From contig NZ_LT608328.1 in the NCBI RefSeq assembly GCF_900095795.1, forward strand, positions 2,845,001 through 2,909,000: a stretch of DNA of 64,000 bases. The letters are read 5' to 3'. Positions 1,343-35,314 of this stretch are shown in pieces. Within the stretch, counting starts at the first letter, position 1; every line of letters starts with the position of its first letter. Source of the stretch: Petrimonas mucosa (GTDB taxonomy: Bacteria > Bacteroidota > Bacteroidia > Bacteroidales > Dysgonomonadaceae). The notes under the pieces are model-generated. The model was not told the origin of the DNA. It saw only the letters and a program-made list of their open reading frames with translations, and did not search any database. The position numbers and the translations under genes are program-made.

Positions 1343-1354
1343 ATTCCTTATCTA

Positions 1355-1735: not shown

Positions 1736-1765
1736 ATGATTTTTTTAAATTGTTATTTTCTAAAC

Positions 1766-1882
1766 TTATCCCTGACGTTGTTTGAACTTGGGATTCTTCT
1801 TGTTGATAATGTATAAGCGGCCTTTTCTGCGAACGATCTTGCAGTCTGCCGTACGTTTTTTTAAAGATGCTCTTACTTTCAT
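1766..1882 (-). CDS. rpmJ: 50S ribosomal protein L36 (bL36)
   Basis: Small 38-residue L36: [20 protein letters not shown] then [19 protein letters not shown]36 binds 23S rRNA near the base of the L7/L12 stalk. Only one of the zinc-ligand cysteines of the Cys4/CCCH form remains, so this is the zinc-free version. The ATG sits 73 bases downstream of the infA stop. The 72-base gap holds the inverted repeat at 1893-1945. Confidence 0.95.
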
Positions 1883-1892
1883 ATTTCTATTT

Positions 1893-1945
1893 TTTAGATG
1901 TCAGATATCAGATCTCAGTGCAATGACCGATATCTGATGTCTAAA
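1893..1945 (-). repeat. Inverted repeat between infA and rpmJ
   Basis: Two 17-base arms (1893-1909 and 1929-1945) match as an inverted repeat at 15 of 17 positions, with a 19-base spacer. The arm core is TCAGATATC. In the transcribed strand the two mismatches are A-C/C-A, giving an internal 2-base bulge in an otherwise strong stem. There is no U-run, so it does not look like an intrinsic terminator. An RNA processing, stabilising or translation-control element inside the operon is possible. Confidence 0.7.
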
Positions 1946-1954
1946 TGTCTGTTT

Positions 1955-2173
1955 TTATTTGTACCTGAATGAAATTCTTCCTTTCGAAAGATCGTAAGGC
2001 GACATTTCCACACGCACCCGGTCTCCGGGTAATATCCGGATATAATGCATACGCATCTTTCCGGAAATGTGTGCGGTAATTTCGTGCCCATTCTCCAATT
2101 CTACACGGAACATGGCATTGGACAATGCTTCCACTATTGTTCCGTCTTGTTCAATTGCTGCCTGTTTCGCCAT
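1955..2173 (-). CDS. infA: Translation initiation factor IF-1
   Basis: Binds the 30S A site during initiation and helps IF-2 and IF-3. 72 residues, the standard length, with an S1-like OB fold: [20 protein letters not shown], then [19 protein letters not shown] and GRISFRYK at the end. The start is preceded by AAAAGGA (2180-2186), a recognisable Shine-Dalgarno motif. The map stop lies 11 bases upstream. Confidence 0.98.
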
Positions 2174-2184
2174 TGTAGTTCCTT

Positions 2185-2970
2185 TTAATTGTTGCTAGTT
2201 TCCTGAATAAATTCAAATGTTGATAATATTTCAGCCTTCCCGTTCCGGATTGCGACAGTGTGCTCGAAATGGGCAGAAGGCTTGCGGTCTTTGGTCCGCA
2301 CTGTCCATCCGTCGTTTTCAAACACCACATTCTTGCTACCCATATTGATCATCGGTTCGATGGCAATGCACATACCGTTTTTCAATAACGGTCCTGTTCC
2401 CCTTCTGCCGTAGTTTGGCACCTCCGGAGCTTCGTGCATGTTTCTGCCGATCCCGTGACCTACCAACTCCCTGACAACCGAATAACCGTGTGATTCGCAG
2501 TAGGTCTGGATAGCCGAAGCGATATCTCCTATCCGTTTATCCTGGCACGCCTGCTCAATTCCCTTGTAAAGAGCTTCCCGGGTAACGTCGAGCAATCGTC
2601 TGACCTCCGCCTTCACCTCACCCACGCAGAACGTGTATGCCGAATCACCACAATATCCCTGCAAGCATGTACCGCAGTCGATTGAAACGATATCTCCCTC
2701 TTTCAGGGGGAGGTTATTGGGAATTCCATGTACTACCTGCTCATTTACAGAAGCACAGATGGAATTTGGAAAACCGCCGTATCCTAAAAAGGTGGGAATA
2801 GCTCCATGATCCCTGATAAACTCCTCAGCAATCTTGTCGAGCTGAAGTGTCGTCACTCCCGGCTTGATGTGTTTGGAAAGCTCACCCAGAGTCATTCCAA
2901 CCAAACGGTTGCTGTGACGCATCAGTTCGATCTCTTCGTCAGTTTTCAGTATGATCGTTTTACTATTCAT
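2185..2970 (-). CDS. map: Type I methionine aminopeptidase
   Basis: Removes the initiator methionine from nascent proteins using a dinuclear metal centre. 261 residues. Metal ligands are visible in order: two Asp in [19 protein letters not shown], His in [19 protein letters not shown], Glu in AIEPMIN and the final Glu in the FEHTVAI region. It lies between secY and infA, the position common in Bacteroidota and Gram-positive spc operons, linking export and N-terminal processing to the ribosomal genes. Confidence 0.97.
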
Positions 2971-2991
2971 TCCAATTTACCCACAAGAAAC

Positions 2992-4314
2992 TTAATAAGC
3001 CGCAATTGAGCCGGTCCTACCTTTGATCCGGGCTCCCGATTTCAGGAAGCCGTCGTAATGACGCATCAGCAGATGGCTCTCGATCTGTTGCAAGGTGTCG
3101 AGAACAACGCCGACAAGAATCAGCAACGAAGTTCCCCCGAAGAATTGCGCAAACTGCGAATTGATCCCGGTCATTCCGGCAAAAGCGGGCATGATGGCAA
3201 CCAGTGCCAGGAAAAGAGAACCGGGAAAGGTTATTCTTGACATGACCAGGTCGATATATTCTGCCGTTTTTTTACCAGGTTTGATGCCCGGGATAAAGCC
3301 GTTGTTCCTCTTCAGGTCTTCAGCCATTTGAACGGGATTAACCGTAATGGCCGTATAGAAATAGGTGAAAGCAATGATAAGCAATGCAAAGATAAAATTA
3401 TACGAAAAACTTGTATAATTCATCAATGAAGCCCAAAAACCGCCTCCATCCTTAACCGAGAACTGGGCAACTGTCAACGGGATAAACATGATAGCCTGTG
3501 CAAAGATGATAGGCATTACGTTTGCTGCATTCACTTTCAGGGGAATATACTGACGAACGCCTCCATATTGCTTGTTTCCGACAATACGTTTTGCATACTG
3601 TACAGGTATCTTTCTTGTGCCTTGCACCAGCATGATGGCACCAGCTATAACAACCATCAGGAAAATGATCTCCAAAAGGAAGAGCACCAGTCCACCAGGG
3701 GCGTTCAGTAACCGGTCAACCTCAGCCACCAGGGCGTGGGGAAGACGGGCGATAATACCAATTAGAATGATGAAGGAGATACCATTTCCAACACCTTTGT
3801 CGGTAATCCTTTCACCGAGCCAGAGTACAAACATACTACCACCGGCAAGAATGATCGTGGATGGAATAACCCAATCGAACAGACCACCCGGAATTGCTGA
3901 TCCCAAAGCACCATAAATATAGGCGGGACCCTGGAAGAGCAAAATGGCAACCGTCAGGTAGCGGGTGTACTGGTTCATCTTCGTACGTCCGCTCTCACCC
4001 TCACGTTGCAACTTCTGAAATGCAGGAACTGCAATGCCCAACAGCTGCATCACGATGGATGCAGAGATGTAGGGCATGATTCCCAACGCAAAGATTGAGG
4101 CGTTTGCAAACGCACCTCCCGAGAACATATCGAGCAATCCGAGCAAACCTGAACTGGCATTCGCCTGCAGGGCCTGGAGTTCCAACGGATTAACACCCGG
4201 GAGTACGACAAACGAACCAAACCGGTAGATGGCTACAAAACCCAACGTGATGAGTAACCTCATCCGCAAGTCTTCAATTTTCCAAATATTTTTTACAGTC
4301 TGTACAAATCCCAT
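2992..4314 (-). CDS. secY: Protein translocase subunit SecY
   Basis: Channel-forming subunit of the SecYEG inner-membrane translocon. 440 residues with about ten hydrophobic segments. Characteristic stretches are LPGVNPLELQAL near the N-terminus, the GERITDKGVGNGIS loop and GFIPGIKPGKKTAEYID, the cytoplasmic loop that contacts SecA and the ribosome. The stop of rplO is 4 bases before its ATG, so translation is probably coupled. Confidence 0.98.
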   Translation of the reverse strand: MGFVQTVKNIWKIEDLRMRLLITLGFVAIYRFGSFVVLPGVNPLELQALQANASSGLLGLLDMFSGGAFANASIFALGIMPYISASIVMQLLGIAVPAFQKLQREGESGRTKMNQYTRYLTVAILLFQGPAYIYGALGSAIPGGLFDWVIPSTIILAGGSMFVLWLGERITDKGVGNGISFIILIGIIARLPHALVAEVDRLLNAPGGLVLFLLEIIFLMVVIAGAIMLVQGTRKIPVQYAKRIVGNKQYGGVRQYIPLKVNAANVMPIIFAQAIMFIPLTVAQFSVKDGGGFWASLMNYTSFSYNFIFALLIIAFTYFYTAITVNPVQMAEDLKRNNGFIPGIKPGKKTAEYIDLVMSRITFPGSLFLALVAIMPAFAGMTGINSQFAQFFGGTSLLILVGVVLDTLQQIESHLLMRHYDGFLKSGARIKGRTGSIAAY

Positions 4315-18990: not shown

Positions 18991-19052
18991 TCCGGTTTAA
19001 TCCAAGCGGATAAACACAAATAACTTTTTTCTTTTTTATATTTAAACGATGA

Positions 19053-19210: not shown

Positions 19211-22200
19211 ATGTATAACAAATCACTCCACCTCATTTTAGAAGACGGAACAGTATTTAAAGGAAAATCATTTGGTTACGAGGCCCCGGTTGCCGGTGAA
19301 GTTGTTTTTAGCACCGGAATGGTCGGGTACACCGAAAGTCTTTCAGACCCGTCTTATCTCGGACAGATTTTAACGCTCACTTACCCGCTGATTGGTAATT
19401 ACGGCGTACCGAAAGAGGAAACAACGCAAGGTATTTCCACTTTTTATGAATCGGAAAGAATACAGGCAAGCGGTCTTATTGTTTCCGATTTTTCTTTTGA
19501 ATACAGCCATTGGAACGCGGCAAAAAGTCTTAGCGACTGGCTGAAGGAGAACAAAGTACCGGCAGTATACGGCATCGATACCCGTGAACTTACCAAACTG
19601 GTAAGGGAGAAGGGGACAATGCTCGGCAAGCTGGTCTTTCCGGATGAGCCCGACATACCGTTTGTCAATCCCGATGACGAGAACCAGGTAGCAAAGGCCA
19701 GCTGCAAGGAGGTGATTGTATACGGCAACGGGAAACACAAGGTGGTCCTTGTTGATTGTGGCGTGAAAAACAACATCATCCGCTGTCTGCTCAAACGCGA
19801 CACTACGGTCATTCGCGTACCCTGGGATTACGATTTCAACAGCATGGAGTTCGACGGATTGTTCATCTCCAACGGTCCCGGCGATCCTGCGTACTGTACA
19901 GCAACCATAGACAACATCCGCAAGGCGATGCAGAACGGCAAGCCGATATTCGGTATCTGCATGGGGAACCAGTTGCTGTCGCTGGCAGGAGGAGCAAAGA
20001 CATATAAACTGAAATATGGTCACCGCAGCTGCAATCAGCCGGTGCAGCTTGCAGGGAGACAACGGGCCTTCGTCACCTCACAAAACCACGGCTTTGCAGT
20101 AGACAATGAGTCGTTGGGCTCGGAGTGGGAGCCTCTCTTTGTAAACATGAACGACGGCACGAACGAAGGTATCCGGCATAAGAGCAAGCCTTGGTTTTCA
20201 TGCCAGTTTCACCCCGAAGCATCGGCAGGGCCAACCGATACCGAGTTTCTATTCGATGTCTTCATCCGGACACTTGAGGAGGAAAACGTTTCGATCCCGA
20301 AACTGATCGAAGATGAACTCGATGCTAAATTGGTCGCCAAGCAGATCTATCAGGGGGTAGAAAAAGGGGAGGTTAAAAAAGTACTTCTGCTGGGTTCGGG
20401 AGCCCTCAAGATAGGTGAGGCCGGTGAATTTGACTACTCCGGCTCGCAGGCCCTGAAGGCACTTAAGGAGGAGGGTATCGAGACCGTGCTGGTCAATCCG
20501 AACATCGCGACCGTTCAGACATCGGAAGGTATTGCCGACAAGGTCTACTTTCTGCCGGTAACACCTGAATTTGTAGAGCGAGTGATTGCAAAAGAGCGTC
20601 CCGACAGCATTTTCCTCTCGTTTGGTGGACAGACGGCACTCAACTGCGGTGTGGCACTCTACAGAAAGAAGATACTCGAAAAATACAACGTCCGCGTGCT
20701 TGGCACGCCGGTCCAGGCCATTATCGATACGGAAGACCGGGAAATCTTCAACCGGAAGCTTTCTGAAATCGGGGTGAAATATATCAGCAGTGAAGCGGTC
20801 ACCACACTGGATGATGCCATAAAGGCTGCCGACAACCTCGGATATCCGGTGATCGTACGTGCCGCTTATGCATTGGGAGGCTTGGGCAGCGGATTCTGTG
20901 ACAATGAGGAGGAGCTCAGATCACTCGTTACGAAAGCCTTCAACTACTCCCCGCAAGTATTGGTGGAAAAATCGCTGAAGGGCTGGAAAGAGATTGAATA
21001 TGAGGTGGTGCGCGACCGGTACGACAACTGTATCACGGTCTGCAACATGGAGAACTTTGATCCGCTGGGCATACATACAGGTGAGAGTATCGTAGTAGCC
21101 CCCTCGCAGACGCTGTCCAACAGCGAATATTACAAACTGCGCGAACTTGCGATCCGCATCATTCGCCACATCGGTATTGTGGGCGAATGCAATGTCCAAT
21201 ATGCACTGGATCCGGTTTCGGAGGATTACCGGGTAATTGAAGTGAATGCACGCCTGAGCCGCTCTTCGGCACTGGCTTCAAAGGCAACCGGATACCCGCT
21301 CGCCTTCGTCGCCGCAAAACTGGGTCTAGGTTACGGACTTCCCGAACTGAAGAACTCTGTGACCAAAGAGACCACCGCATTCTTTGAACCTGCCCTCGAT
21401 TATATCGTCTGCAAAATTCCGCGCTGGGACCTTGCAAAGTTCCATGGCGTAAGCCGTGAAATCGGCTCCTCGATGAAATCGGTCGGCGAAATCATGGCGA
21501 TCGGCAGAAGTTTCGAAGAGGCATTCCAGAAGGGACTGCGGATGATTCAACAGGGGATGCACGGTTTCACCGGAAACAAACAACTGGTCACCGACGAACT
21601 GGACAAGAACCTGAATGTGCCCACCGACAAACGGGTCTTCTTCCTTTCACAGGCATTTGAGCAGGGATACACGGTGGAGAAGATCTACGGGCTGACAAAA
21701 ATCGACCGCTGGTTCCTCTATAAATTGAAGAATATTGTAGACATTGCCCACTCCATCGAGCAATTTGGAAACAAGGAGGAGGTTCCAACCGAACTGTTTA
21801 TCCGGGCAAAGAAAAGCGGCTTTTCAGATTACCAGATAGAAAAGCTGATATATAAGAAACCGATGCCCAAGGATACCATTCGCGACGAACGTGTCAAACG
21901 GGGAATCCTGCCGGTAGTGAAACAGATCGATACCCTGGCGGCCGAATATCCGGCCCAGACCAACTACCTCTATCTGACCTACAACGGAATCGCCAATGAT
22001 GTCAAATATCTGGGCGACCGTCGCTCGGTGATCGTACTGGGCTCGGGAGCATACCGCATCGGTTCGTCGGTCGAGTTCGACTGGTGCTCAGTTAACGCCC
22101 TCAACACCATCCGGGAAAGGGGGTTACGCTCGGTAATGATCAACTATAATCCCGAGACGGTCTCAACCGATTACGATATGTGCGACCGGCTCTACTTTGA

Positions 22201-23566
22201 CGAGTTGAGCTACGAACGGGTGAGAGATATCATTGAGCTCGAAAATCCGAAGGGCGTGATCGTCTCCACGGGTGGTCAGATACCCAACAACCTTGCAGTA
22301 CGGCTGGATCAATCGGGAGTAAAGATACTGGGCACTCAGGCAGTAGACATTGATAATGCCGAAGATCGCCACAAGTTCTCGTCCATGCTCGACCGTCTGG
22401 GAATAGATCAACCACGCTGGAAAGAGTTGACGACACTCGAAGATATCCATCAATTTGTAAAGGAGGTGGGCTTCCCGCTGCTGGTACGTCCCTCCTATGT
22501 CCTCTCTGGGGCAGCAATGAACGTCTGCTCCAATACAAGCGAACTGGAGCGCTTCCTGACATTGGCCACGGAAGTCTCCAAAGAGTACCCGGTGGTTGTT
22601 TCTGAATTCATCGAGGGAGCAAAAGAGATTGAGATCGATGCCGTGGCACAAAAAGGGGAGCTGGTGGTCTATGCGATCTCGGAACATGTGGAATTTGCCG
22701 GCGTCCATTCGGGCGATGCTACCATCCAGTTCCCGCCGCAGAAGATCTACACGCAGACCGTCCGCAGGATCAAGCAGATCGCACGTCAGATCGCACGCGA
22801 ACTGCACATCTCCGGACCCTTCAATATCCAGTTCCTGGCAAAGGACAACGATATCAAGGTGATCGAGTGCAACCTCAGGGCTTCGCGCTCATTTCCGTTT
22901 GTCTCCAAAGTACTCAAGATCAATTTTATTGAACTGGCTACCCGTGTCATGCTGGAAGAAGAGGTCCAACGGCCCGAAAAATCGGCATTCGACTTGGACT
23001 ATGTGGGAATCAAAGCATCTCAATTCTCGTTCACCCGTCTGCAGAAAGCCGACCCTGTATTGGGAGTTGACATGGCCTCTACCGGTGAGGTGGGCTGTAT
23101 CGGAACCCATTTCGACGACGCACTGCTTACCGCCATGCTTTCGGTGGGATACCGGATACCGGAAAAGAATATCGTCGTATCATCAGGAAGCACCAAATCG
23201 AAAGTGGCGCTGCTGGATGCCTGCCGGCTGCTGGCAGACAACGGTTACAACCTCTTTGCCACCAGCGGCACACAGAAGTTTCTTGAAGAGAACGGCGTTA
23301 GGTGCAGCTATGTCGCATGGCCCGACGAAGAGGGGGCACCGAAAGTAACTGAGATGATTGCAGGAAAGGAGGTAGATCTGGTTATCAATATACCCAAAAA
23401 CCTGACCGAAAGGGAATTAACAAACGGCTACAAAATCCGTCGGGGAGCTATCGATTTCAATATTCCGCTCATCACCAACGCACGGCTGGCCAGTGCCTTT
23501 ATCAAGGCATTCTGCAATATGAAAGCAGAAGATATCGAGATCAAGCACTGGGGAGAATATAAGTAA
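19211..23566 (+). CDS. carAB: Single-chain glutamine-dependent carbamoyl-phosphate synthase (CarA-CarB fusion, CAD-like)
   Basis: Makes carbamoyl phosphate from glutamine, bicarbonate and 2 ATP for pyrimidines and arginine. 1451 residues. Residues 1 to about 375 are CarA: the class I glutaminase triad is Cys250 (FGICMGNQ), His334 and Glu336 (FHPEAS). CarB starts near 388: first ATP-grasp half (LLGSGALKIGEAGEFDYSGS), second half (VIVLGSGAYRIGSSVEFDWC; PETVSTDYDMCDRLYFDEL), and a C-terminal MGS-like allosteric domain from about 1315. The two subunits are one polypeptide with a short linker. The CarB sequence looks closer to the CPSase of animal CAD than to E. coli CarB (ALGGLGSGF, KGWKEIEYEVVRD, PAQTNYLYLTY). 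The upstream in-frame ATG at 19049 adds 54 unrelated residues and lies before the promoter, so MYNKSLHLILEDGTVFKGKS at 19211 is chosen. Confidence 0.95.
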   Translation: MYNKSLHLILEDGTVFKGKSFGYEAPVAGEVVFSTGMVGYTESLSDPSYLGQILTLTYPLIGNYGVPKEETTQGISTFYESERIQASGLIVSDFSFEYSHWNAAKSLSDWLKENKVPAVYGIDTRELTKLVREKGTMLGKLVFPDEPDIPFVNPDDENQVAKASCKEVIVYGNGKHKVVLVDCGVKNNIIRCLLKRDTTVIRVPWDYDFNSMEFDGLFISNGPGDPAYCTATIDNIRKAMQNGKPIFGICMGNQLLSLAGGAKTYKLKYGHRSCNQPVQLAGRQRAFVTSQNHGFAVDNESLGSEWEPLFVNMNDGTNEGIRHKSKPWFSCQFHPEASAGPTDTEFLFDVFIRTLEEENVSIPKLIEDELDAKLVAKQIYQGVEKGEVKKVLLLGSGALKIGEAGEFDYSGSQALKALKEEGIETVLVNPNIATVQTSEGIADKVYFLPVTPEFVERVIAKERPDSIFLSFGGQTALNCGVALYRKKILEKYNVRVLGTPVQAIIDTEDREIFNRKLSEIGVKYISSEAVTTLDDAIKAADNLGYPVIVRAAYALGGLGSGFCDNEEELRSLVTKAFNYSPQVLVEKSLKGWKEIEYEVVRDRYDNCITVCNMENFDPLGIHTGESIVVAPSQTLSNSEYYKLRELAIRIIRHIGIVGECNVQYALDPVSEDYRVIEVNARLSRSSALASKATGYPLAFVAAKLGLGYGLPELKNSVTKETTAFFEPALDYIVCKIPRWDLAKFHGVSREIGSSMKSVGEIMAIGRSFEEAFQKGLRMIQQGMHGFTGNKQLVTDELDKNLNVPTDKRVFFLSQAFEQGYTVEKIYGLTKIDRWFLYKLKNIVDIAHSIEQFGNKEEVPTELFIRAKKSGFSDYQIEKLIYKKPMPKDTIRDERVKRGILPVVKQIDTLAAEYPAQTNYLYLTYNGIANDVKYLGDRRSVIVLGSGAYRIGSSVEFDWCSVNALNTIRERGLRSVMINYNPETVSTDYDMCDRLYFDELSYERVRDIIELENPKGVIVSTGGQIPNNLAVRLDQSGVKILGTQAVDIDNAEDRHKFSSMLDRLGIDQPRWKELTTLEDIHQFVKEVGFPLLVRPSYVLSGAAMNVCSNTSELERFLTLATEVSKEYPVVVSEFIEGAKEIEIDAVAQKGELVVYAISEHVEFAGVHSGDATIQFPPQKIYTQTVRRIKQIARQIARELHISGPFNIQFLAKDNDIKVIECNLRASRSFPFVSKVLKINFIELATRVMLEEEVQRPEKSAFDLDYVGIKASQFSFTRLQKADPVLGVDMASTGEVGCIGTHFDDALLTAMLSVGYRIPEKNIVVSSGSTKSKVALLDACRLLADNGYNLFATSGTQKFLEENGVRCSYVAWPDEEGAPKVTEMIAGKEVDLVINIPKNLTERELTNGYKIRRGAIDFNIPLITNARLASAFIKAFCNMKAEDIEIKHWGEYK

Positions 23567-23602
23567 CGGGTGGCATGGAGACGGTTCAAATATTCACTCC
23601 TC

Positions 23603-25252
<1,650 letters not shown>

Positions 25253-25270
25253 TTATATACATTTTCCTGG

Positions 25271-25278
25271 CAAAGATA
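25271..25278 (-). promoter_or_regulatory. Possible internal promoter for pyrG (-7 element)
   Basis: TATCTTTG on the minus strand matches TAnnTTTG, in the 94-base gap between asnB and pyrG; a second match, TATTTTTG, lies at 25289-25296. No TTTG is at the ideal distance, so strength is uncertain. It would let pyrG be expressed independently of nitrogen genes. Confidence 0.4.
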
Positions 25279-25301
25279 CGCATTTCGTCAAAAATATCGG
25301 G

Positions 25302-26984
25302 TCAATCCACCGCTGAAAATGTGTAACCCATTTCATGCACCGAACCTACAGCACGTCCAGATGGATCTGCATTTTTTCTGAAAGCCTCATCCCATTCCAG
25401 CGCCACAGGAGTACTGCAGGCAACCGAAGGTACTGACGGCACACACTGGGCAGCCGAGTCGGAGGGAAACAGTTCGGAATAGATGCTGCGGTAGACGTAC
25501 TCTTCTTTTGTAAGTGGAGGATTTATCGGAAAACGGTACTTCACATTTGCCATCTGTTCATCGGTGACCGTCTCGCTTGCAATGATCTTCAGCGTATCGA
25601 TCCAGTTGTACCCCACCCCGTCCGAGAACTGCTCCTTCTGGCGCCAAGCCACCTCTCTTGGCAGGTAATCTTCAAATGCCTTACGCAGGATATACTTTTC
25701 CACCTTTCCGTTTCCTGCCATCTTATCCTTCGGGTTGAGCCGCATGGCCACATCCAGAAACTCCTTGTCGAGAAAGGGCACACGCCCCTCTACACCCCAG
25801 GCAGCCAGCGATTTATTTGCCCTCAAACAGTCATACTGATGCAGTTTGCCCAATTTCCGAACGGTCTCCTTGTGAAACTCTTCCGCATTGGGGGCCTTGT
25901 GAAAATAGAGATAACCTCCGAATACTTCATCGGCTCCTTCACCCGAAAGCACCATCTTGACTCCCATTGAACGGATATAACGGGCCAGCAGGTACATCGG
26001 AGTACTGGCACGTACGGTGGTCACGTCATAGGTTTCAATATGGTAGATCACATCCCTTAAGGCATCCAGTCCCTCCCGCACGGTAAAATGTATCTCGTGG
26101 TGAATGGAACCGATATGGTCGGCTACCCGCTTCGCGGCAGCCAGGTCAGGTGAACCCTCCAGCCCAATGGCAAACGAGTGGAGCCTGGGCCACCATGCAT
26201 CCTCCCGGTTTCCGGTCTCGATCCGTTTGGCTGCAAATTTTCTAGCTATTGCCGAGATGATTGAACTGTCCAATCCGCCCGAAAGCAAGACCCCGTACGG
26301 CACATCCGACATCAGCTGGCGCTCTACCGCATCCTCCAGCGCCTGGCGCAACTCTTCAATATCCGATCGATTCTCCTTTACATTTTCATACTCCATCCAG
26401 TCGCGCTCATACCACCTGCGCGGCTCATCGTCGAGACTGTAGTAGTAATGTCCGGGCAGAAACTCCTCAATCTTGCTGCAGTAACCCTCCAGCGCCTTCA
26501 GTTCGGAGGCTACGTAGTAGGCACCATCCTTGTCCCACCCCTGATATAGTGGAATGATCCCGATATGGTCTCGCCCGATCATGAAACGGTCGTTTTCAAT
26601 ATCGTAGAGGGCAAAAGCGAAAATTCCATTCAAATCTTCCAGGAAGTCTACACCCTTTTCCCGGTATAGGGCCAGTATCACCTCACAATCCGACTGGGTT
26701 GTGAACTCATACCTGCTCTCAAACCGCTTACGGATCTCCCTGTGATTATAGATCTCGCCGTTAACGGCCAGAACCAGTTTGCCGTCTTTGCTGTAGAGCG
26801 GTTGTCCACCCGACTTCGGGTCTACGATAGCCAATCGTTCATGTGCCAGGATGGCCTTATCCGAAACGTAGATGCCCGACCAGTCCGGACCACGGTGCCG
26901 GACCGTCTTTGACATCTTCAGGATCTGTTGCCGCAGACTCTCTGCGGGCTTCTTTATATTAAATGTACCTACAATACCACACAT
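25302..26984 (-). CDS. asnB: Asparagine synthase (glutamine-hydrolysing), AsnB type
   Basis: Converts aspartate, glutamine and ATP to asparagine. 560 residues. Class II glutaminase with the N-terminal nucleophile Cys2 (MCGIVGTFN) and RHRGPDWSG, AVNGEIYNHREIR; synthetase domain PP-loop is VLLSGGLDSSIISAIARKF near residue 235. Length and the MCGIVGTFNIK start match the E. coli AsnB family. Downstream of gltD in the same direction, 75-base gap. Confidence 0.96.
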   Translation of the reverse strand: MCGIVGTFNIKKPAESLRQQILKMSKTVRHRGPDWSGIYVSDKAILAHERLAIVDPKSGGQPLYSKDGKLVLAVNGEIYNHREIRKRFESRYEFTTQSDCEVILALYREKGVDFLEDLNGIFAFALYDIENDRFMIGRDHIGIIPLYQGWDKDGAYYVASELKALEGYCSKIEEFLPGHYYYSLDDEPRRWYERDWMEYENVKENRSDIEELRQALEDAVERQLMSDVPYGVLLSGGLDSSIISAIARKFAAKRIETGNREDAWWPRLHSFAIGLEGSPDLAAAKRVADHIGSIHHEIHFTVREGLDALRDVIYHIETYDVTTVRASTPMYLLARYIRSMGVKMVLSGEGADEVFGGYLYFHKAPNAEEFHKETVRKLGKLHQYDCLRANKSLAAWGVEGRVPFLDKEFLDVAMRLNPKDKMAGNGKVEKYILRKAFEDYLPREVAWRQKEQFSDGVGYNWIDTLKIIASETVTDEQMANVKYRFPINPPLTKEEYVYRSIYSELFPSDSAAQCVPSVPSVACSTPVALEWDEAFRKNADPSGRAVGSVHEMGYTFSAVD

Positions 26985-27059
26985 TTCGATTAAACTTTTA
27001 AGATTATGGTTTTTAAATAAGAGTTTCGGATAATTTTGCTTTTTCAGGTCAGGAGTATC

Positions 27060-28490
27060 TTAAACCGTTGCTTCTACCAACATCCGGTGAACACTTTCGG
27101 CCACCTTCCGGCCCGAAGCGATCGCTTTTACAACCAGGCTGGCACCCATCACTGCGTCGCCGGTAGCAAACACTTTTGCCACCGAACTGCGACTCTCCTT
27201 GTCTACTGCAACGTTTCCGCGGACATCATACTCCAAGCCAAGTTCGTCAAGCAATCCCTCGTGTACAGGGTGAACAAATCCCAGTGCGAGGAAGACAATA
27301 TCTGCCTTGATCACCTCGATATTGCCCGTACCCACCATGGTTAATCGTCCGTTATCTGCTTTCTGCCAGCTGATCTCCTCCACTACCGCCTCCTTTACAT
27401 TACCGTTTTCGCCCCTGAACTCAAGGGTGTTCAGCAACCAGCGGCGTTCACACCCCTCCTCATGCGAACTGGATGTCTTCAATACATTTGGATAGCTGTG
27501 GGGCCACGGCGTGGCTGGATTTTTCCCGACGGGCGGCTTGGGCATGATCTCTATCTGGGTCACCTTTACTGCGCCTTGCCGTATGGAGGTTCCTACGCAA
27601 TCTGAACCGGTATCGCCGCCTCCAATTACCAGAACATGCTTCCCTCTGGCCGAAATCCTCTCGGAATGACTCATCGGTTCACCCATGACAAGCTGATTCT
27701 GCTGCGAAAGAAAATCCATTGCAAAATAGATTCCTTTCAGGTCGCGTCCTACCGGTGTGATATCCCTCGGCTTGCCTGCACCTACCGCCAGGCAGACGGC
27801 ATCGTAGTTCCTCATCAACTCCTCTCCGGATACATCCTTCCCAATCTCGGTATTGGTTCTGAAGAGGACCCCCTCCTCCACAAGCTGATTCAACCTTCTG
27901 TCGATCACCTTCTTGTCGAGTTTGAAGTTGGGTATGCCATACCGGAGCAGGCCACCCGGACTCCTATCCTTTTCGAAAACCGTCACGGTATGTCCCTTCC
28001 TGTTGAGCTGCTGGGCAATGGCCAGTCCTGCCGGGCCGGAGCCCACGACTGCCACTCTCTTTCCTGTCCGGTGACGGGGAGGGATAGCCTTGATCATGCC
28101 TTCCAAAAAAGCGACCTCCGTAACCGATGCTTCATTTTCGCGTATGGTAACCGGCGCCTCGTGTAAAGCCAGCACACACGATTTCTCGCAGGGAGCCGGG
28201 CAGACCCTTCCCGTAAAATCGGGGAAGTTGTTGGTCTCATGCAGGATCTCCACCCCCTCTTTCCATTTTCCCTTGTAAATCATATCCTGCCATTCAGGCA
28301 TTCGGTTGCCCAGCGGGCAGGCCCAATGACAAAAAGGAATTCCGCAATCCATGCACCGGGATGCCTGCACTTTCCGTTCTTCCTGATTCAGAGTCAGTTC
28401 AACTTCCTCGAAGTCTCCGGTTCTCTCCTCGACCGGTCTGTATCCCGCCTCTTTGCGGGGAATAGTTATAAATGCTTTCGGATTACCCAT
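27060..28490 (-). CDS. gltD: Glutamate synthase (NADPH) small subunit
   Basis: Passes electrons from NADPH through FAD and iron-sulfur centres to GltB. 476 residues. N-terminal cysteine clusters CMDCGIPFCHWACPLGNRMP and CPAPCEKSC hold 4Fe-4S centres; FAD-binding VVGSGPAGLAIAQQLNRKG and NADPH-binding VIGGGDTGSDCVG follow. It lies 46 bases after gltB (49 residues more than enough for coupling is not needed here), forming the GOGAT enzyme with it. Confidence 0.97.
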   Translation of the reverse strand: MGNPKAFITIPRKEAGYRPVEERTGDFEEVELTLNQEERKVQASRCMDCGIPFCHWACPLGNRMPEWQDMIYKGKWKEGVEILHETNNFPDFTGRVCPAPCEKSCVLALHEAPVTIRENEASVTEVAFLEGMIKAIPPRHRTGKRVAVVGSGPAGLAIAQQLNRKGHTVTVFEKDRSPGGLLRYGIPNFKLDKKVIDRRLNQLVEEGVLFRTNTEIGKDVSGEELMRNYDAVCLAVGAGKPRDITPVGRDLKGIYFAMDFLSQQNQLVMGEPMSHSERISARGKHVLVIGGGDTGSDCVGTSIRQGAVKVTQIEIMPKPPVGKNPATPWPHSYPNVLKTSSSHEEGCERRWLLNTLEFRGENGNVKEAVVEEISWQKADNGRLTMVGTGNIEVIKADIVFLALGFVHPVHEGLLDELGLEYDVRGNVAVDKESRSSVAKVFATGDAVMGASLVVKAIASGRKVAESVHRMLVEATV

Positions 28491-28536
28491 CTTATCTCAA
28501 TTTGTTACAGCTCCATGCCTGGCGGCAATGAAATCA

Positions 28537-31500
28537 TCAAACTTCTGCTTTAGAGGTTACTTGTCTCTTCTTGTCTAACGCCATCAATTTCTCCTCCTGC
28601 AATACCTTCTTGTATTCAATCGGAACCACCTTGATGAACCTCTCCACATTTTCACTCCAGTTGTCCAGAATACGTTTTGCCAACGGACTCCCGGTATGGC
28701 TATAGTGCGTCGATATGAGCCTGTAAAGCTCTTTCTCGTCCTCCTTATCCTCAATAAGCGCAAGCTCTGACATCTCCATGTTGCAGAAATAGTCGAAATT
28801 TCCCTTTTCATCGAAAACATAAGCGATCCCTCCGCTCATACCTGCAGCAAAATTTCGCCCGGTTGGGCCCAGCACCACAGTCCGGCCACCGGTCATATAT
28901 TCGCAGCAATGGTCGCCTGCCCCTTCTACAACGGCTATCGCACCAGAGTTCCGCACGCAGAAACGTTCTCCGACCACTCCATTGATGTAGACCTCGCCCG
29001 ATGTGGCACCGTAAAGCAGTGTGTTTCCGCAGAGGATATTCTCTTCGGGCTTGAAGCTGCTTCCGGCTGGGGGAACAACAACGATTTTTCCGCCGGAGAG
29101 TCCCTTACCCAGATAATCGTTGGCATCACCCTCGATGCGGAAAGTGACCCCTTTGGCCAGAAATGCTCCAAAACTCTGACCTGCGGAACCTTCGAATGTC
29201 ACCTTGATGGTATCTTCCGGCAATCCCGCCTGACCGTAGCGCCTGGCTATCTCTCCGGAAAGCATGGCGCCTGTTACCCGATCGGTATTCCTGATCTTCA
29301 TTCTCATCTCTACAGGTATAAGCAGATCCAGTGCGGGTGCTGATCTGCCAATCAGTTCCCTGTCGAGGATATCGTATATCTTGTGCTCCTGTTTTGCTAC
29401 GTTGCGCAACGCATTTGTGGTGAGATTGCCTGGGAAGAAGGTGATTTTCGAAAGATCGGCTTTTTCCGTTTTCGGGAAATCTGGAAAGTGTCGCCTCTCC
29501 AACAGGTCGGACCGTCCGACAGCCTCCTCCAATGTCCTGAATCCCAGTTGTGCGAGATGCTCACGGGTCTCTTCGGCCAGAAACCTGAAGAAATTGACCA
29601 GGTATTCGTACCTCCCAACGAACCGCCTGCGAAGCTCCTCGTTTTGAGTGGCAACTCCCACTGGGCAGGTGTTGAGGTGACACTTGCGCATCATCACGCA
29701 ACCCAGCACGATCAGCGCACTGGTGGCGAATCCGAACTCCTCGGCTCCCAGCAATGCGGCAAGAATGATATCCCGTCCGGTTTTGAGCTGTCCATCGGCC
29801 TGTAACCTGACCACACCGCGCAGGTTATTCATCACAAGGGTCTGCTGTGTCTCTGCAAGACCGATCTCCAACGGCAAGCCGGCATGCTTGATGGAACTTG
29901 CAGGGCTTGCGCCTGTTCCCCCTTCGCTTCCGCTTATCAGGATCAGATCGGCCTTCGCCTTGGCCACGCCGGCCGCGATGGTCCCTACTCCACTCTCCGA
30001 GACCAGCTTGACACTCACTATCGCTTCCGGATTGATGTTCTTCAAGTCGAAAATCAGTTGAGCCAGGTCCTCGATGGAGTAGATATCGTGGTGCGGCGGC
30101 GGTGAAATCAATGAGATACCTGGAATGGAGTGTCTGGTTTTGGCAATGATCTTGTCCACCTTAAATCCGGGGAGCTGCCCTCCCTCACCTGGCTTTGCGC
30201 CCTGGGCGATCTTGATCTGGAGCTCATCGGCATTCACCAGGTATTCGGCGGTAACACCAAAACGTCCTGAAGCGACCTGTTTGATTGCTGAACGGGTACT
30301 CAAGCCATCTTCTCGCTTTTTGTACCTTTCGGGATCCTCTCCACCCTCGCCGGTATTGCTTCTTCCACCAATGATATTCATGGCAATTGCCATTGCTTCA
30401 TGCGCCTCCCGGCTGATGGAGCCGAACGACATGGCTCCGGTACAGAACCGTTTCATGATCTTTTCGACCGGTTCCACCTCCGAGATATCGATCGGGTTAC
30501 GCTTGTAGTCGAGCAGGTCTCTGATAAAGGCAGGATTGGGCTTGTCGTCCACCATTCGGCTATACTCCTTGAACAGCCCGTAATCATTGGTCTTGGTTGC
30601 AATCTGCAACCTGTAGATCGTCTCGGGATTCCAGGCATGGTACTCCCCGTCGTTGCGGTAGGCATACTGACCCAGGTTTTTCAGCCGTAACGAATCGCCG
30701 GTCTCGCGATATGCTTCAAGAAATGGATCCAGCACTTCCCTGGCAATATCGTCCAGATCGATCCCTTCAATCTTCGACGAGATACCCTTGAAATAGGCAT
30801 TCAGTACAGATGAAGAGATACCGATGGCTTCAAAAATATGCGCACCGCGATAGCTTCTCAGTGTTGAATTTCCCATTTTTGAGAGGACCTTGAGCAGTCC
30901 CTTGTTGATCGCCTTGATATAGTTTTTCTTAGCCGTATCGAAGTCGAGCTGGATGTCGCCAGTTTTCACCTTTCTTGCCAGCAGGGCAAAGGCGAGATAG
31001 GGATTTACGGCATTTGCCCCGAAACCGAACAACAGTGCAAAATGCATCACCTCCCGGGGTTCGGCACTCTCTACAACAATATCGATCTGGATCCTCTTCC
31101 TCTTCTCCACCAGGTAATGGTGTACGGCCGACACGGCCAGGAGGCAAGGAATGGGAGCATGATTCCGGTCCACTCCGCGATCGCTCAGCACAATATAATT
31201 CTTCCCTTCATCAACTGCCTTTTCTACCAGAAGGCACAATTCGTCAATAGCTTTTTTCAAGCCGTCAGTACCCTCTTCAGGGTTGAAAAGCATCGGCAGA
31301 ACAGCAGCAGAAAATCCTTTATACCGCAGATTCAGCAGAATATCAAACTGCGTGTTGGTCAAGATCGGGCTCTTCACCTTCACAATCCTCGACAGGCGTG
31401 GAATCTGATCCAACAGGTTCTGGTGGATAGCACCCACATATCCGGTCAGCGACATCACCAACTCCTCCCTGATCGGATCGATGGGGGGATTGGTAACCTG

Positions 31501-33069
31501 TGCAAACTGTTGACGGAAATAGTTGAAGAGACGCTGCTGTTTCCGGGAGAAGAGAGCCAGCGAAACATCATTACCCATGGAGGAGACAGGCTCCTTGCCC
31601 TCGGCAGCCATAGGAACAATCAGATTATCTACATCTTCCACCGAATAGCCGAAGGCGGTCAGCAACGTATCCAGGTGAGGGATCTCATTGTTCACACTCC
31701 TTCCCGACGAGATCTGCTCGAGGTTGCTGCAGTTCTTGTTTAGCCACTCCCTGTACGGAAAAGCATCGGCAAGCGTCTTCTTCAGCTCGTCGTCGGAGAA
31801 GATACGTCCGGTCTTGGTATCTACCATCAACATCTTTCCGGGACGGAGACGTCCACGCGCTTTGATCTTCTCGGGAGCAATCTCGAGCACCCCGGTTTCG
31901 GAAGCGATGATCAGCTGGTCATCGTGTGTCACCGTATATCGCGCCGGCCTGAGTCCGTTCCTGTCCAGCAGACCGCCGGCAAACCGTCCGTCACTGAAAA
32001 GCAATGCAGCCGGTCCGTCCCATGGTTCCATCAACATGCTGTGGTACTCGTAAAACGCTTTCAGGTCGCCCGAAATCGGGTTCTTGTCGTTGAAACTCTC
32101 CGGCACGAGCATGGCCAGGGCATGGGGAAGCGTTTTACCCGACATGACGAGAAGTTCCAAAACGTTATCCAGTGATGCGCTGTCGCTCATGCCTGGCTGC
32201 ACGATGGGAAACAACTCACTCATATCGCCCAGGAGTTCTGATTTCAGGACGCTTTCGCGGCTCTCCATCCATTGGCGGTTACCCCGGATGGTATTGATCT
32301 CGCCATTGTGTCCCAGCATCCGGAAAGGCTGTGCCAGGTCCCATGTAGGGAAAGTGTTGGTACTGAAACGGGAGTGGACCAGTGCTACCCTACTGGTAAA
32401 ATTGGGGTTTGAAAGGTCGGGAAAATAGTCCCGCAACTGTAATGAGGTCAGCATCCCCTTGTAGACCATCTGCCGCGTAGAGAGGGTTACGATGTAGAAA
32501 CTGCGATCGCCCGCCTTACCTGACTCCAAAACGGCTTTCTCGATCTTCTTGCGCAGGATGTAGAGTTTCCGCTCCAGTTCATCCTGAGGGTACCCCCCCG
32601 TAATAAAGATCTGCTTGATGTCGGGCTCGCTGGAGCGTGATATCTCACCCAGACAGGCTGAATTGACGGGAACATCTCTTACCGCGAGCAGATTCAGGTT
32701 CTCTTTTACCGTATAGTCCCGAATCAGCTTGAGGTATTCATCTGCTCTTTGCTTATCCTTGGGAAGAAAGACAAGGCCTGTCCCATATTTACCTTTGGAT
32801 GGGACGGCAATTCCCTGCAAGAGGATAAATTCGTGTGGGATATGAACAAGAATACCCGCTCCATCTCCAGTTTGGTTGTCGGCGCTTTCTGCCCCCCGAT
32901 GTACCATATTCTCGAGTACCTGGAGGCCACACTCAACCGTTTCGTGTGATTTGTCCCCGTTCAACGAAACCACCAGTCCCACGCCACAGGCATCGTGTTC
33001 GTTCTGAAAGGAATAAAGCGACTTTTGCTCGTATTCAGCAATATGCTGGAAAGGATTATCGTTAATCAT
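28537..33069 (-). CDS. gltB: Glutamate synthase (NADPH) large subunit
   Basis: GOGAT large chain: glutamine plus 2-oxoglutarate gives two glutamates. 1510 residues from the chosen start. The class II glutaminase nucleophile is Cys28 (NEHDACGVGLVV), exposed after propeptide removal, as usual for GltB. The FMN/synthase domain has GEGGEDPERY and AKPGEGGQLPGFKVD; the 3Fe-4S cluster is CVMMRKCHLNTC; the C-terminal GXGXG helix domain includes ANDYLGKGLSGGKIVVVPP. An in-frame ATG at 33102 would add 11 residues (MTSGFKKETDR); the shorter start is preferred for a normal propeptide length. Confidence 0.96.
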   Translation of the reverse strand: MINDNPFQHIAEYEQKSLYSFQNEHDACGVGLVVSLNGDKSHETVECGLQVLENMVHRGAESADNQTGDGAGILVHIPHEFILLQGIAVPSKGKYGTGLVFLPKDKQRADEYLKLIRDYTVKENLNLLAVRDVPVNSACLGEISRSSEPDIKQIFITGGYPQDELERKLYILRKKIEKAVLESGKAGDRSFYIVTLSTRQMVYKGMLTSLQLRDYFPDLSNPNFTSRVALVHSRFSTNTFPTWDLAQPFRMLGHNGEINTIRGNRQWMESRESVLKSELLGDMSELFPIVQPGMSDSASLDNVLELLVMSGKTLPHALAMLVPESFNDKNPISGDLKAFYEYHSMLMEPWDGPAALLFSDGRFAGGLLDRNGLRPARYTVTHDDQLIIASETGVLEIAPEKIKARGRLRPGKMLMVDTKTGRIFSDDELKKTLADAFPYREWLNKNCSNLEQISSGRSVNNEIPHLDTLLTAFGYSVEDVDNLIVPMAAEGKEPVSSMGNDVSLALFSRKQQRLFNYFRQQFAQVTNPPIDPIREELVMSLTGYVGAIHQNLLDQIPRLSRIVKVKSPILTNTQFDILLNLRYKGFSAAVLPMLFNPEEGTDGLKKAIDELCLLVEKAVDEGKNYIVLSDRGVDRNHAPIPCLLAVSAVHHYLVEKRKRIQIDIVVESAEPREVMHFALLFGFGANAVNPYLAFALLARKVKTGDIQLDFDTAKKNYIKAINKGLLKVLSKMGNSTLRSYRGAHIFEAIGISSSVLNAYFKGISSKIEGIDLDDIAREVLDPFLEAYRETGDSLRLKNLGQYAYRNDGEYHAWNPETIYRLQIATKTNDYGLFKEYSRMVDDKPNPAFIRDLLDYKRNPIDISEVEPVEKIMKRFCTGAMSFGSISREAHEAMAIAMNIIGGRSNTGEGGEDPERYKKREDGLSTRSAIKQVASGRFGVTAEYLVNADELQIKIAQGAKPGEGGQLPGFKVDKIIAKTRHSIPGISLISPPPHHDIYSIEDLAQLIFDLKNINPEAIVSVKLVSESGVGTIAAGVAKAKADLILISGSEGGTGASPASSIKHAGLPLEIGLAETQQTLVMNNLRGVVRLQADGQLKTGRDIILAALLGAEEFGFATSALIVLGCVMMRKCHLNTCPVGVATQNEELRRRFVGRYEYLVNFFRFLAEETREHLAQLGFRTLEEAVGRSDLLERRHFPDFPKTEKADLSKITFFPGNLTTNALRNVAKQEHKIYDILDRELIGRSAPALDLLIPVEMRMKIRNTDRVTGAMLSGEIARRYGQAGLPEDTIKVTFEGSAGQSFGAFLAKGVTFRIEGDANDYLGKGLSGGKIVVVPPAGSSFKPEENILCGNTLLYGATSGEVYINGVVGERFCVRNSGAIAVVEGAGDHCCEYMTGGRTVVLGPTGRNFAAGMSGGIAYVFDEKGNFDYFCNMEMSELALIEDKEDEKELYRLISTHYSHTGSPLAKRILDNWSENVERFIKVVPIEYKKVLQEEKLMALDKKRQVTSKAEV

Positions 33070-33118
33070 TCTGTCTGTTTCTTTTTTAAAGCCGGATGTC
33101 AAATGAGAAAAAATGGTT

Positions 33119-35314
33119 TTAGCTGATAAAGAGCAGCTCCCTGTACTTGGGAAGCGGCCACATCTGGTTATCCACTATCAGCTCCAACTTGTCGATGTGA
33201 TAACGGATAACATCGAAATAGGGCAGCACGGTATCGTGGTAGGCAATCGCTTTTTCGCGCACATTCTCAATCTTATTGGCCACTTTCCTGGCCTCGACCA
33301 TCGCATCCACGTTGGTTTTGATTCCTGAAATGTGTTTCGCGATATCCACGATCAAGGCAATATCGTCCTTGTTGAGCTCCTCTGCCTCCTTTTCGCTAAA
33401 TACCCCGCGCAGCTTATATACATTGTCCAGTAGCATTGTCTGGTACTTTGTAGCCACCGGAATGATATGATTGATGGAGAGGTCGCCAAGAACGCGGGCT
33501 TCGATCTGGATCTTCTTGGTGTAAGTTTCCCATTTCACTTCGTTCCGGGCATGGAGCTCCCGTTCGCTCAATACTCCAATGGTCTCAAAAAGTTCGACCG
33601 ACTGCTTGCTGAGATAGTTGTCATAGATCAACGGAACACTTGTTTCGCAATCCAGACCGCGTCTTTTGGCCTCAGCTTTCCACTCGTCGGAATATCCGTT
33701 TCCGTCGAATCGGATATACTTGCAAGCCTTGATATAATGACGGAGCGTATCGTAGATCGCCTCCTCCTTTTTCATTCCCGATTTCATCTTCTCGTCAATC
33801 TCTTTTTTGAACTCGATCAGCTGCATCGCTACCGCGGCATTCAATGCCGTCATCGCCGAAGCGCAGTTTGCCGACGAACCTACGGCACGGAACTCAAAGC
33901 GGTTGCCCGTAAATGCGAACGGTGATGTACGGTTACGGTCGGTATTGTCGATCAGCACCTCGGGAATATGGGCAACACCCAGTTTCATCTTCTGAAACTC
34001 ATCTACCGATATCTCGTCATCCTCTGAGCTCTCTTCAATCTTGTCGAGAACGGCAGAAATCTGTGTTCCGAGAAAAACGGAGATAATGGCGGGCGGAGCT
34101 TCATTTGCACCAAGACGGTGTGCATTCTGAGCCGACATGATTGACGCCTTGAGCAGCCCGTTATTCTTGTAAACGGCCATCAACGTATTGACGACAAACA
34201 CGATAAACTGCAGGTTTTCACGCGGGGTCTTGCCGGGAGTAAAGAGACCGACACCGGTATCGGTTCCCAGCGACCAGTTGTTGTGCTTGCCCGATCCGTT
34301 GATTCCGGCAAACGGTTTTTCGTGAAGGAGCAACCTGAAATGATGCTTGGCCGCTATCCTGTCCATCAACGACATAACCAGCAGGTTCTGATCGACGGAG
34401 AGGTTGGTCTCACCGAAAACAGGCGCCAGCTCAAACTGATTGGGTGCCACCTCGTTGTGCCTGGTCTTCAACGGAATGCCATATTTATATGCTTCAAACT
34501 CCACCTCCCTCATGAATGCTGCTACCCTGGGCGGTATCGATCCAAAATAGTGATCCTCCAGCTGCTGGTTCTTGGCACTCTCGTGCCCCATCAATGTCCT
34601 GCCGGTGAGGTGAAGATCGGGCCGGGCATCATAGAGGGCTTGGTCGACAAGGAAGTACTCCTGTTCCCAACCCAGGTAGGAATAGACCTTTTTCACTTTC
34701 GGGTCGAAGAGCCGGCAAACCTCTACTGCAGCCTTGTCAACAGCCGACAGCGCTTTCAACAACGGGGTCTTGTAATCGAGAGCTTCACCCGTATAGGAGA
34801 TGAAAACCGTCGGGATACAAAGGGTATCGTCTACAATGAAGGCGGGCGACGAAGGATCCCAGGCGGTGTATCCCCTGGCCTCAAAGGTATTCCGGATACC
34901 TCCGCTGGGGAAACTCGACGCATCCGGTTCCTGCTGTGCAAGCAATTTACCTGAAAACTTCTCGATGATATCTCCGCCGGGGGCTCCGGCATAATCAATA
35001 AAGCTGTCATGCTTTTCCGCCGTACCGTCTGTCAGCGGTTGGAACCAGTGCGTATAATGGGTTGCACCCATCTCCATTGCCCACATTTTCATCCCCGCCG
35101 CAACATGTTCAGCAATTTCGCGGGGTAGCGTTACTCCTTCATCAATGGCATCCACAATAACTTTAATCGTATCCTTGGACAGGTATTTGGCCATCTGCCT
35201 GCGATTAAAGACATACTTGCCATAATAATCCGACGGTTGTCCCTTGGGAGTCTCTCCCATCACCGGAAGGCGCTTCGATGCCTCCACAATTGCACTGAAT
35301 CTCAAAGTTGACAT
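33119..35314 (-). CDS. glnN: Type III glutamine synthetase
   Basis: ATP-dependent ammonia assimilation to glutamine. 731 residues, the large GS III form typical of Bacteroidales. N-terminal GSIII domain FVFNRRQMAKYLSKDT region; catalytic signatures NEVAPNQFELAPVFGETN and GKHNNWSLGTDTG (ATP-binding). It is the first gene of the run glnN-gltB-gltD-asnB-pyrG, 49 bases before gltB, so the GS/GOGAT cycle is encoded as one unit. A good promoter lies upstream. Confidence 0.97.
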   Translation of the reverse strand: MSTLRFSAIVEASKRLPVMGETPKGQPSDYYGKYVFNRRQMAKYLSKDTIKVIVDAIDEGVTLPREIAEHVAAGMKMWAMEMGATHYTHWFQPLTDGTAEKHDSFIDYAGAPGGDIIEKFSGKLLAQQEPDASSFPSGGIRNTFEARGYTAWDPSSPAFIVDDTLCIPTVFISYTGEALDYKTPLLKALSAVDKAAVEVCRLFDPKVKKVYSYLGWEQEYFLVDQALYDARPDLHLTGRTLMGHESAKNQQLEDHYFGSIPPRVAAFMREVEFEAYKYGIPLKTRHNEVAPNQFELAPVFGETNLSVDQNLLVMSLMDRIAAKHHFRLLLHEKPFAGINGSGKHNNWSLGTDTGVGLFTPGKTPRENLQFIVFVVNTLMAVYKNNGLLKASIMSAQNAHRLGANEAPPAIISVFLGTQISAVLDKIEESSEDDEISVDEFQKMKLGVAHIPEVLIDNTDRNRTSPFAFTGNRFEFRAVGSSANCASAMTALNAAVAMQLIEFKKEIDEKMKSGMKKEEAIYDTLRHYIKACKYIRFDGNGYSDEWKAEAKRRGLDCETSVPLIYDNYLSKQSVELFETIGVLSERELHARNEVKWETYTKKIQIEARVLGDLSINHIIPVATKYQTMLLDNVYKLRGVFSEKEAEELNKDDIALIVDIAKHISGIKTNVDAMVEARKVANKIENVREKAIAYHDTVLPYFDVIRYHIDKLELIVDNQMWPLPKYRELLFIS

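Follow-up and report, generated by a model that had tools for sequence, protein, structure and literature searches.

Human CPS1 and the fused carbamoyl-phosphate synthetase of Petrimonas mucosa fall in one clade, a likeness that very probably reflects common ancestry of the subunits and not of the fusion

In Escherichia coli, the glutaminase (CarA) and synthetase (CarB) of carbamoyl-phosphate synthetase (CPS) are separate chains, whilst animal CAD and fungal Ura2 carry a glutamine-dependent CPS in which the two are fused; CAD also carries dihydroorotase and aspartate transcarbamylase (ATCase). Human mitochondrial CPS1 (PDB 5dot, 6uel) is likewise a single chain, and fused bacterial CPS II is already known as a class (PMC6022934), the passage that describes it naming no lineage and drawing no link to a eukaryotic clade. 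Here we analyse a fused carA-carB gene of Petrimonas mucosa at positions 19211-23566 of a 64,000-nucleotide stretch (contig NZ_LT608328.1, positions 2,845,001 to 2,909,000), referred to throughout as the window. An original prediction, made without database searches, had read the gene as a fusion resembling CAD and had proposed common ancestry with eukaryotic CPS II or a gene transfer.

Translation of the gene (+ strand) gives 1451 residues followed by a stop, with no internal stop. Both family models exceed their cut-offs within this single frame, NCBIfam TIGR01368 (CarA) matching residues 7-356 (444.7 bits; cut-off 307) and TIGR01369 (CarB) residues 385-1434 (1538 bits; cut-off 1027), while Pfam finds CPSase_sm_chain, GATase, two pre-ATP-grasp/ATP-grasp pairs, D3 and MGS along the chain. 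The predicted one-chain arrangement is thus borne out, as is the intact triad, with Cys250, His334 and Glu336 all present in the alignment. With E. coli CarA and CarB the protein shares the reaction, the domains and the conserved catalytic columns; it differs in being one chain, in an identity of only about 39% over CarB and in three insertions or deletions (indels) that E. coli lacks. With human CPS1 it shares the single chain, the domain order, about 54% identity over CarB and the same three indels. With CAD and Ura2 it has in common that a glutaminase and a synthetase are joined in a glutamine-dependent CPS. Unlike in CAD, MGS is the last domain of the chain; its 1451 residues include no dihydroorotase or ATCase domain, and the ATCase of the genome is located elsewhere (G000:C1:2139761).

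Against solved structures, the window protein scored 1680 bits with human CPS1 over its full length, versus 814 bits with E. coli CarB and 256 bits with CarA. Human CPS1, taken from alignments to such structures and the one full-length eukaryotic CPS among the hits listed, is the sole eukaryotic sequence in all of our comparisons. A comparison of 148 CarB rows longer than 850 residues (a few genes being counted twice) separated 118 rows with 49.3-57.8% identity to human CPS1 from 30 rows with 37.2-42.2%, with none between. We term these groups E-type and conventional; the names are coined here and the dividing line of 0.47 identity was set after the data had been seen. Eight motifs shared with the E-type were absent from all 30 conventional rows. 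SSVEFDWC, present in human CPS1, occurs in 114 of the 118 E-type rows, TNYLY.TY in 110, GDAT in 117 and GWKE[IV]EYE[VI][VI]RD in 99 (none of the 14 rows of CarB2, a second synthetase described below). Four of the eight are the animal-like stretches named in the original prediction (exact, shortened or loosened), which prove to be real motifs of human CPS1 and most E-type rows; the other four were picked after alignment and are illustrative, constituting no test.

The indels divide the rows in the same manner. One stretch of CarB is two residues shorter in human CPS1 and in 117/118 E-type rows (the exception being L132) and in none of the 30 conventional rows. In CarA, a first segment comprises 17-20 residues in human CPS1 and 96/97 E-type rows (exception L144) versus 8-9 residues in 14/14 conventional rows. 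A second comprises 12 residues in human CPS1 and 93/97 E-type rows (exceptions L053, L044, L144 and L151) versus 14-15 residues in 14/14 conventional rows. In sequence, the window protein stands far nearer to a eukaryotic CPS than it does to the ordinary CarAB of bacteria.

Human CPS1 and the E-type bacteria formed one clade in the CarB tree (68 rows; support 100, starred), the CarA tree (44 rows; 100/100, starred) and the joined CarA and CarB tree (33 rows; 100/100, starred). A placement of the window protein inside ordinary bacterial CarB, an outcome that would have told against the original prediction, occurred in none of these trees. When the CarB halves were rooted on their internal duplication, human CPS1 lay inside the E-type clade in both; the conventional rows formed no clade under this root, Bacillus-type sequences standing outside in the C half (90/73) and lacking a settled position in the N half. 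Furthermore, the approximately unbiased (AU) test rejected a topology that grouped human CPS1 with all conventional rows except the Firmicute-like ones (p 3.4e-61).

The fusion itself is rare. Fused loci made up 12 of the 80 best in a tblastn ranking, which is biased towards one-frame loci. Among genomes with CarA, the fusion occurs in 7 of 87 from the family, these belonging to just two genera, and in 3 of 80 from the order. The window's genome is the sole fusion among the 31 E-type genomes listed from the phylum, the other 30 being unfused since their CarB frames span only 655-1108 codons. A 106-row tree requires five or more changes of the fused state among bacteria, or six with human included, and the AU test rejected a single clade of fused bacteria (p 4.7e-72). 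Linkers vary among the fused groups; the one in the window gene, IPKLIEDELDAK...KGEVKKVL, is similar to those of the Petrimonas, Paludibacter, G532 and G297 fusions and unlike those of L019, L046, L060, L061 and L097. A clade of human CPS1 with the fused bacteria was also rejected (p 3.5e-9), its log-likelihood being lower by 374. This test, in which human CPS1 is the sole eukaryote, speaks against inheritance of the fusion from the same event as that of CAD; most of the E-type loci found are split, and the fusion fails as the mark of shared ancestry for which it had been taken.

Two further candidates were discarded. Many of the 80 best loci have carA and carB one stop apart, and such in-frame split pairs were considered as a fusion-prone state. 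In a wider sample of 40 unfused genomes from the 80 order genomes with CarA, both genes lay in 25 of the 40 stretches, 10 pairs sharing a frame (seven of them separated by one stop) and 15 not; the idea was dropped because this share is near the 1 in 3 expected. Additionally, a putative fusion in G072 (open-frame length 1631) consists of two separate frames.

We conclude that the window gene encodes a fused glutamine-dependent CPS II whose likeness to the animal enzymes very probably stems from common ancestry of E-type CarA and CarB, and not from that of the fusion. In this same reading, held with high confidence as a whole, the trees, indels and AU tests establish an E-type clade in which carA and carB are usually separate, and the fusion is recent, dispersed within Bacteroidales and of separate origin from the eukaryotic one. 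Of the common ancestry originally proposed, the shared clade with human CPS1 therefore stands and the fusion as its marker does not. The gene is an ordinary CPS II of a known family; its interest lies in the E-type clade and the tie to eukaryotic CPS.

E-type genes are patchily distributed. CarB at 55% identity or more to the window CarB was found in 31 of 247 phylum genomes (families f1, f2, f11, f17, f33, f35 and f39), the remaining phylum genomes reaching at most 44% among the matches listed, and CarB at 54% or more in 8 of 149 class genomes. The unfused CarB proteins of Bacteroides, Parabacteroides, Prevotella and other Bacteroidales are about 68-80% identical to that of the window; the CarA and CarB of these bacteria belong to the same E-type clade but are encoded by two adjacent genes. 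Genes of f17, f35, f39 and f46 cluster with L063, titled as an Ignavibacteriae metagenome-assembled genome (support 100, starred, CarB tree), and are labelled Ignavibacteria-like here. Three genomes within f35, f17 and f33 (G184, G066 and G160) have CarB at 68-71% to that of the window, others of f35 and f17 being at 58-61%, and look like later transfers. Five of 131 plasmid records fell at 60-80% and the rest below 60%; three of the five are listed, and these are Bacteroidales. Plasmid records of other phyla reached about 43% at best among the matches listed. Every close E-type bacterium found belongs to Bacteroidota in the wide sense.

A search of viral contigs with human CPS1 returned no relative, and two alignments together with L132 as queries returned no eukaryotic-looking locus. 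In a phage collection the CarAB matches listed look conventional, the single record at 60-80% not being among these. The viral contig L132 (IMGVR_UViG_3300040931_000028, 411-3677; host unplaced) provides a useful outgroup to the E-type clade. A joining of human CPS1 with L132 in a tree from a single-rate model was flagged for long branches and was not used.

PMC7542463 describes one eukaryotic CPS clade of animals, fungi, stramenopiles and red algae, and separately a bacterial clade in which the CPS of green algae and plants, derived from a cyanobacterium, also falls. On this basis human CPS1 may stand in for the animal, fungal, stramenopile and red-algal enzymes and not for those of green plants. 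The CPS tree of that study covers 171 taxa including bacteria, and its main text contains no word starting with 'Bacteroid'. Amongst literature titles and abstract openings, with many older CPS phylogenies out of reach, we found no Bacteroidota-type CPS proposed as nearest kin of the eukaryotic enzyme, which is weak evidence of novelty.

Several observations weigh against our reading. The placement of human CPS1 is contradictory: CarB trees nest it within the E-type bacteria (98 and 95, both starred), the joined tree does so weakly (86/92, unstarred), and the C-half tree sets it outside the other E-type bacteria (97/87, starred). A position as sister of all E-type bacteria was not rejected (AU p 0.249, or 0.362 with L132 left outside). 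Human CPS1 is moreover a single eukaryotic sequence on a long branch (about 1.05-1.5). Sampling outside Bacteroidota is thin, comprising plasmid-borne and viral-contig loci only, and the CarB of L132 falls between the two types (50% identical to the window protein, 47.6% to human and 46% to Bacillus), so the gap between E-type and conventional may narrow with more sampling. As to the fusion, parsimony counts of change cannot tell gain from loss. Unfused Proteiniphilum and Fermentimonas genes fall among the Petrimonas and Paludibacter groups on open forks, and because the linkers of these groups are alike with unfused genes between them, some splits may be secondary; the two groups represent either two similar fusions or one fusion and a later split.

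Amongst the alternatives, it is possible, if doubtful, that the E-type is simply an old form of CPS, lost and transferred patchily among bacteria with no special event linking Bacteroidota and eukaryotes. The recovery of the E-type clade in both internal halves of CarB is in keeping with this, as are the patchy distribution with its signs of transfer (G184, G066, G160) and the branching of L132 below human CPS1. However, the close E-type bacteria are all Bacteroidota in the wide sense, with other phyla listed at about 43% at best (these being thinly sampled), and the failure of the conventional rows to form a clade under the internal root leaves a simple split into two forms unsupported.

An early transfer from a eukaryote to bacteria, with later splitting into carA and carB, is unlikely. 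It would agree with the unrejected sister position of human CPS1 and the C-half tree that favours it. Nevertheless, it needs a basal defusion, whereas deep E-type loci (L063, L120, L144 and L151-L154) have separate genes and L132, which lies outside human CPS1 and the other E-type rows, has a stand-alone CarB frame. Given these deep bacteria with separate genes, this would seem the less simple direction.

That the fusion is homologous with that of eukaryotic CPS II and CAD, a fused gene having passed between eukaryotes and the Petrimonas lineage, is very improbable. The identical domain order in one chain and the high full-length identity to human CPS1 might suggest it, but besides the AU rejection given above, the fused bacteria lie within groups of unfused ones, the state changing five times or more, their linkers differ from one another and from the human linker, and the deep E-type lineages fetched are unfused. 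For a eukaryotic metabolic gene that came from bacteria, descent from the mitochondrial (alphaproteobacterial) ancestor is what one would expect by default, and the likeness seen here would then be convergence. Such an origin of the human-type enzyme is scarcely credible, given the rejection of human CPS1 with three alphaproteobacterial CarB sequences (AU p 1.6e-64), the three shared indels and the eight shared motifs that none of the 30 conventional CarB rows contains. Finally, joining of two genes by an assembly error, which the original prediction had raised against itself and which the adjacent, unfused carA and carB of many relatives might suggest, can be dismissed with near certainty, as the same single frame recurs in independent assemblies: Petrimonas sp. 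IBARAKI (L034; complete genome, 93% identical), G488 and G489 (single contigs), G485 and G487, and likewise G531 and G532 of genus g280.

With regard to catalysis, sixteen columns that we take to be catalytic (E. coli numbering R129, R169, E215, E217, H243, Q285, E299, N301, R303, R306, R715, E761, Q829, E841, N843 and R848) are kept in all CarB rows or all but one, and judged by these residues both ATP-grasp sites of the window protein are intact. The loss of the catalytic Cys that characterizes the ammonia-only CPS I is not seen: human CPS1 has Ser in this column, and the window enzyme should use glutamine because it keeps Cys250. Conserved residues and established CPS biochemistry suggest that the N-terminal part would hydrolyse glutamine at Cys250/His334/Glu336. 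The ammonia would then pass internally to the first ATP-grasp domain, where carboxyphosphate would be converted to carbamate, and the second ATP-grasp domain would form carbamoyl phosphate for ATCase and an arginine-type transcarbamylase.

Control of the window protein probably differs from that of E. coli CPS. The column of E. coli Glu892, presumably an ornithine contact, holds Ala in 100 of the 104 E-type rows other than CarB2, and that of Lys993 holds Trp in human CPS1, in the window protein and in 88 of these 104. An excerpt of PMC6245113 gives Lys993 as needed for binding of uridine monophosphate (UMP). By count along the chain, the human Trp is Trp1410. Human CPS1 differs at E. coli Lys954, where it has Arg (Arg1371 by the same count) and E-type bacteria mostly have Gln or Ser; according to an excerpt of PMC4655335, Trp1410 touches the activator N-acetylglutamate, for which Arg1371 is also needed.

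The gene is the only CPS in the window, as originally noted. A check of the whole genome (3.72 Mb, one contig) for further copies found one CarA and two CarB proteins, that of the fusion and CarB2 (65% identical; matched at G000:C1:1952784-1955984 in a 1087-codon frame), and no second CarA. The claim that one CPS must serve both the pyrimidine and arginine branches is consequently not supported, a second CarB making separate supply of the two branches possible. CarB2 forms a separate branch inside the E-type (support 100, starred, CarB tree) and keeps the catalytic columns. The residue at E. coli Cys232, which we take to form part of the ammonia tunnel wall, is replaced in all 14 CarB2 rows, by Val in 11 and by Ala in 3, and is Cys in 104/104 other E-type rows, human CPS1 and 29/30 conventional rows. 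The Asn227 column is His in 14/14 CarB2 rows.

Tandems of carA-carB1-carB2 occur in L007, L066 and L067, and in five genomes (G511, G512, G503, G476 and G230) an intact CarB2 is the only CPS found, without CarA or CarB1. These five have pyrG and ATCase and no carbamate kinase over the cut-off; unlike them, the window's genome has CarA. Scraps of CarA persist in G503 (33 residues just before CarB2) and G476 (42 residues), which fits a real loss of carA. Short CarA remnants lie directly upstream of intact CarB2 in L093 (8922-9020, -) and L091 (10046-10165, -), and the remnants look as if a deletion in a carA-carB1-carB2 tandem took most of carA and all of carB1. The likeliest reading, in which our confidence is evenly balanced, is that CarB2 may use free ammonia.

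The CarB2 locus of the window's genome (G000:C1:1945000-1963000, L086) adjoins genes resembling rRNA methyltransferase and transketolase, both below curated cut-offs, and none of the seven frames scanned beside CarB2 is an arginine or pyrimidine gene. Apparent CarB2-only genomes of the window's own genus (G481, G482, G483 and G486, with a fragment in G484) were rejected as cases of gene loss, the neighbouring and usually essential pyrG also being missing. In these five, carA and pyrG are both absent though two of the genomes are 97-99% complete, which looks more like a gap in the sequences at this locus than a demonstrated loss. G508 and G520, with only CarB pieces at 62-63% and no CarA, were left out of the CarB2-only count.

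CarA is lacking in 69 of 149 genomes of the window's order (for example G298, G310, G322, G328, G334, G335 and G345). When 18 of these were searched with the whole CPS, 17 also lacked CarB and G312 held a fragment. ATCase exceeded the cut-off in 15 of the 17. Carbamate kinase did so in 14 of 17 CarA-less genomes, versus 1 of 12 genomes with CarA and 0 of 5 CarB2-only genomes, and was found in two pieces in G326. In 11 of these 15 genomes (the 14 plus G326), a second transcarbamylase match lies no more than about 250 bases from carbamate kinase. Bacteroidales without a CPS may thus obtain carbamoyl phosphate from carbamate kinase.

The features of the fused gene and its neighbours are collected in Table 1. 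An upstream ATG at 19049 is also in frame and would give 1505 residues, but 19211 is the better start because the frame in L034 opens only 16 codons before the match. The region 19211-33102 forms a cluster of glutamine-linked enzymes, with carAB on the + strand followed by pyrG, asnB, gltD and gltB on the - strand. Adjoining gltB, a 731-residue frame (33119-35314, -) has no NCBIfam match at 1e-10.

Table 1 Features of the fused carA-carB gene and its neighbours, in window positions
Feature	Position	Strand	Basis
Fused carA-carB gene, 1451 codons plus stop	19211..23566	+	open-frame translation, domain matches
CPSase small-chain domain, residues 8-140	19232..19630	+	PF00988
Class-I glutamine amidotransferase domain, residues 179-353	19745..20269	+	PF00117
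Catalytic Cys250 codon (human CPS1 = Ser)	19958..19960	+	alignment
Triad His334 and Glu336	20210..20218	+	alignment
Fusion linker, residues 357-384	20279..20362	+	linker comparison among fusions
CarB part, residues 385-1434	20363..23512	+	TIGR01369
First ATP-grasp domain, residues 509-712	20735..21346	+	PF02786
Oligomerisation domain D3, residues 800-879	21608..21847	+	PF02787
Second pre-ATP-grasp domain, residues 937-1048; second ATP-grasp next	22019..22354	+	PF25596
MGS-like allosteric domain, residues 1334-1422	23210..23476	+	PF02142
Neighbour pyrG, CTP synthase (glutamine-dependent)	23603..25207	-	NF003792/TIGR00337
Neighbour asnB, asparagine synthase B (glutamine-dependent)	25302..26984	-	NF006949
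Neighbour gltD, glutamate synthase small subunit	27060..28490	-	TIGR01317
Neighbour gltB, glutamate synthase large subunit	28537..33102	-	NF008730

We tentatively propose, as a conjecture that may well prove wrong, that eukaryotic CPS, from which CAD and CPS I arose, was acquired from a bacterium whose carA-carB pair was of the E-type now typical of Bacteroidales and Ignavibacteria-like families, not from the mitochondrion or from a conventional CarAB, and was fused later in eukaryotes, and that in this bacterial clade the duplicate CarB2 gave up its glutaminase and works with free ammonia. Were this so, CarB2 would parallel, in bacteria and by a different path, the CPS I of the urea cycle. 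The named bacteria of the E-type clade are, in both subunits and in their indels, the closest relatives of a eukaryotic CPS found here. Which bacteria supplied the first step in eukaryotic pyrimidine synthesis thereby becomes testable, apart from a fusion that has changed repeatedly.

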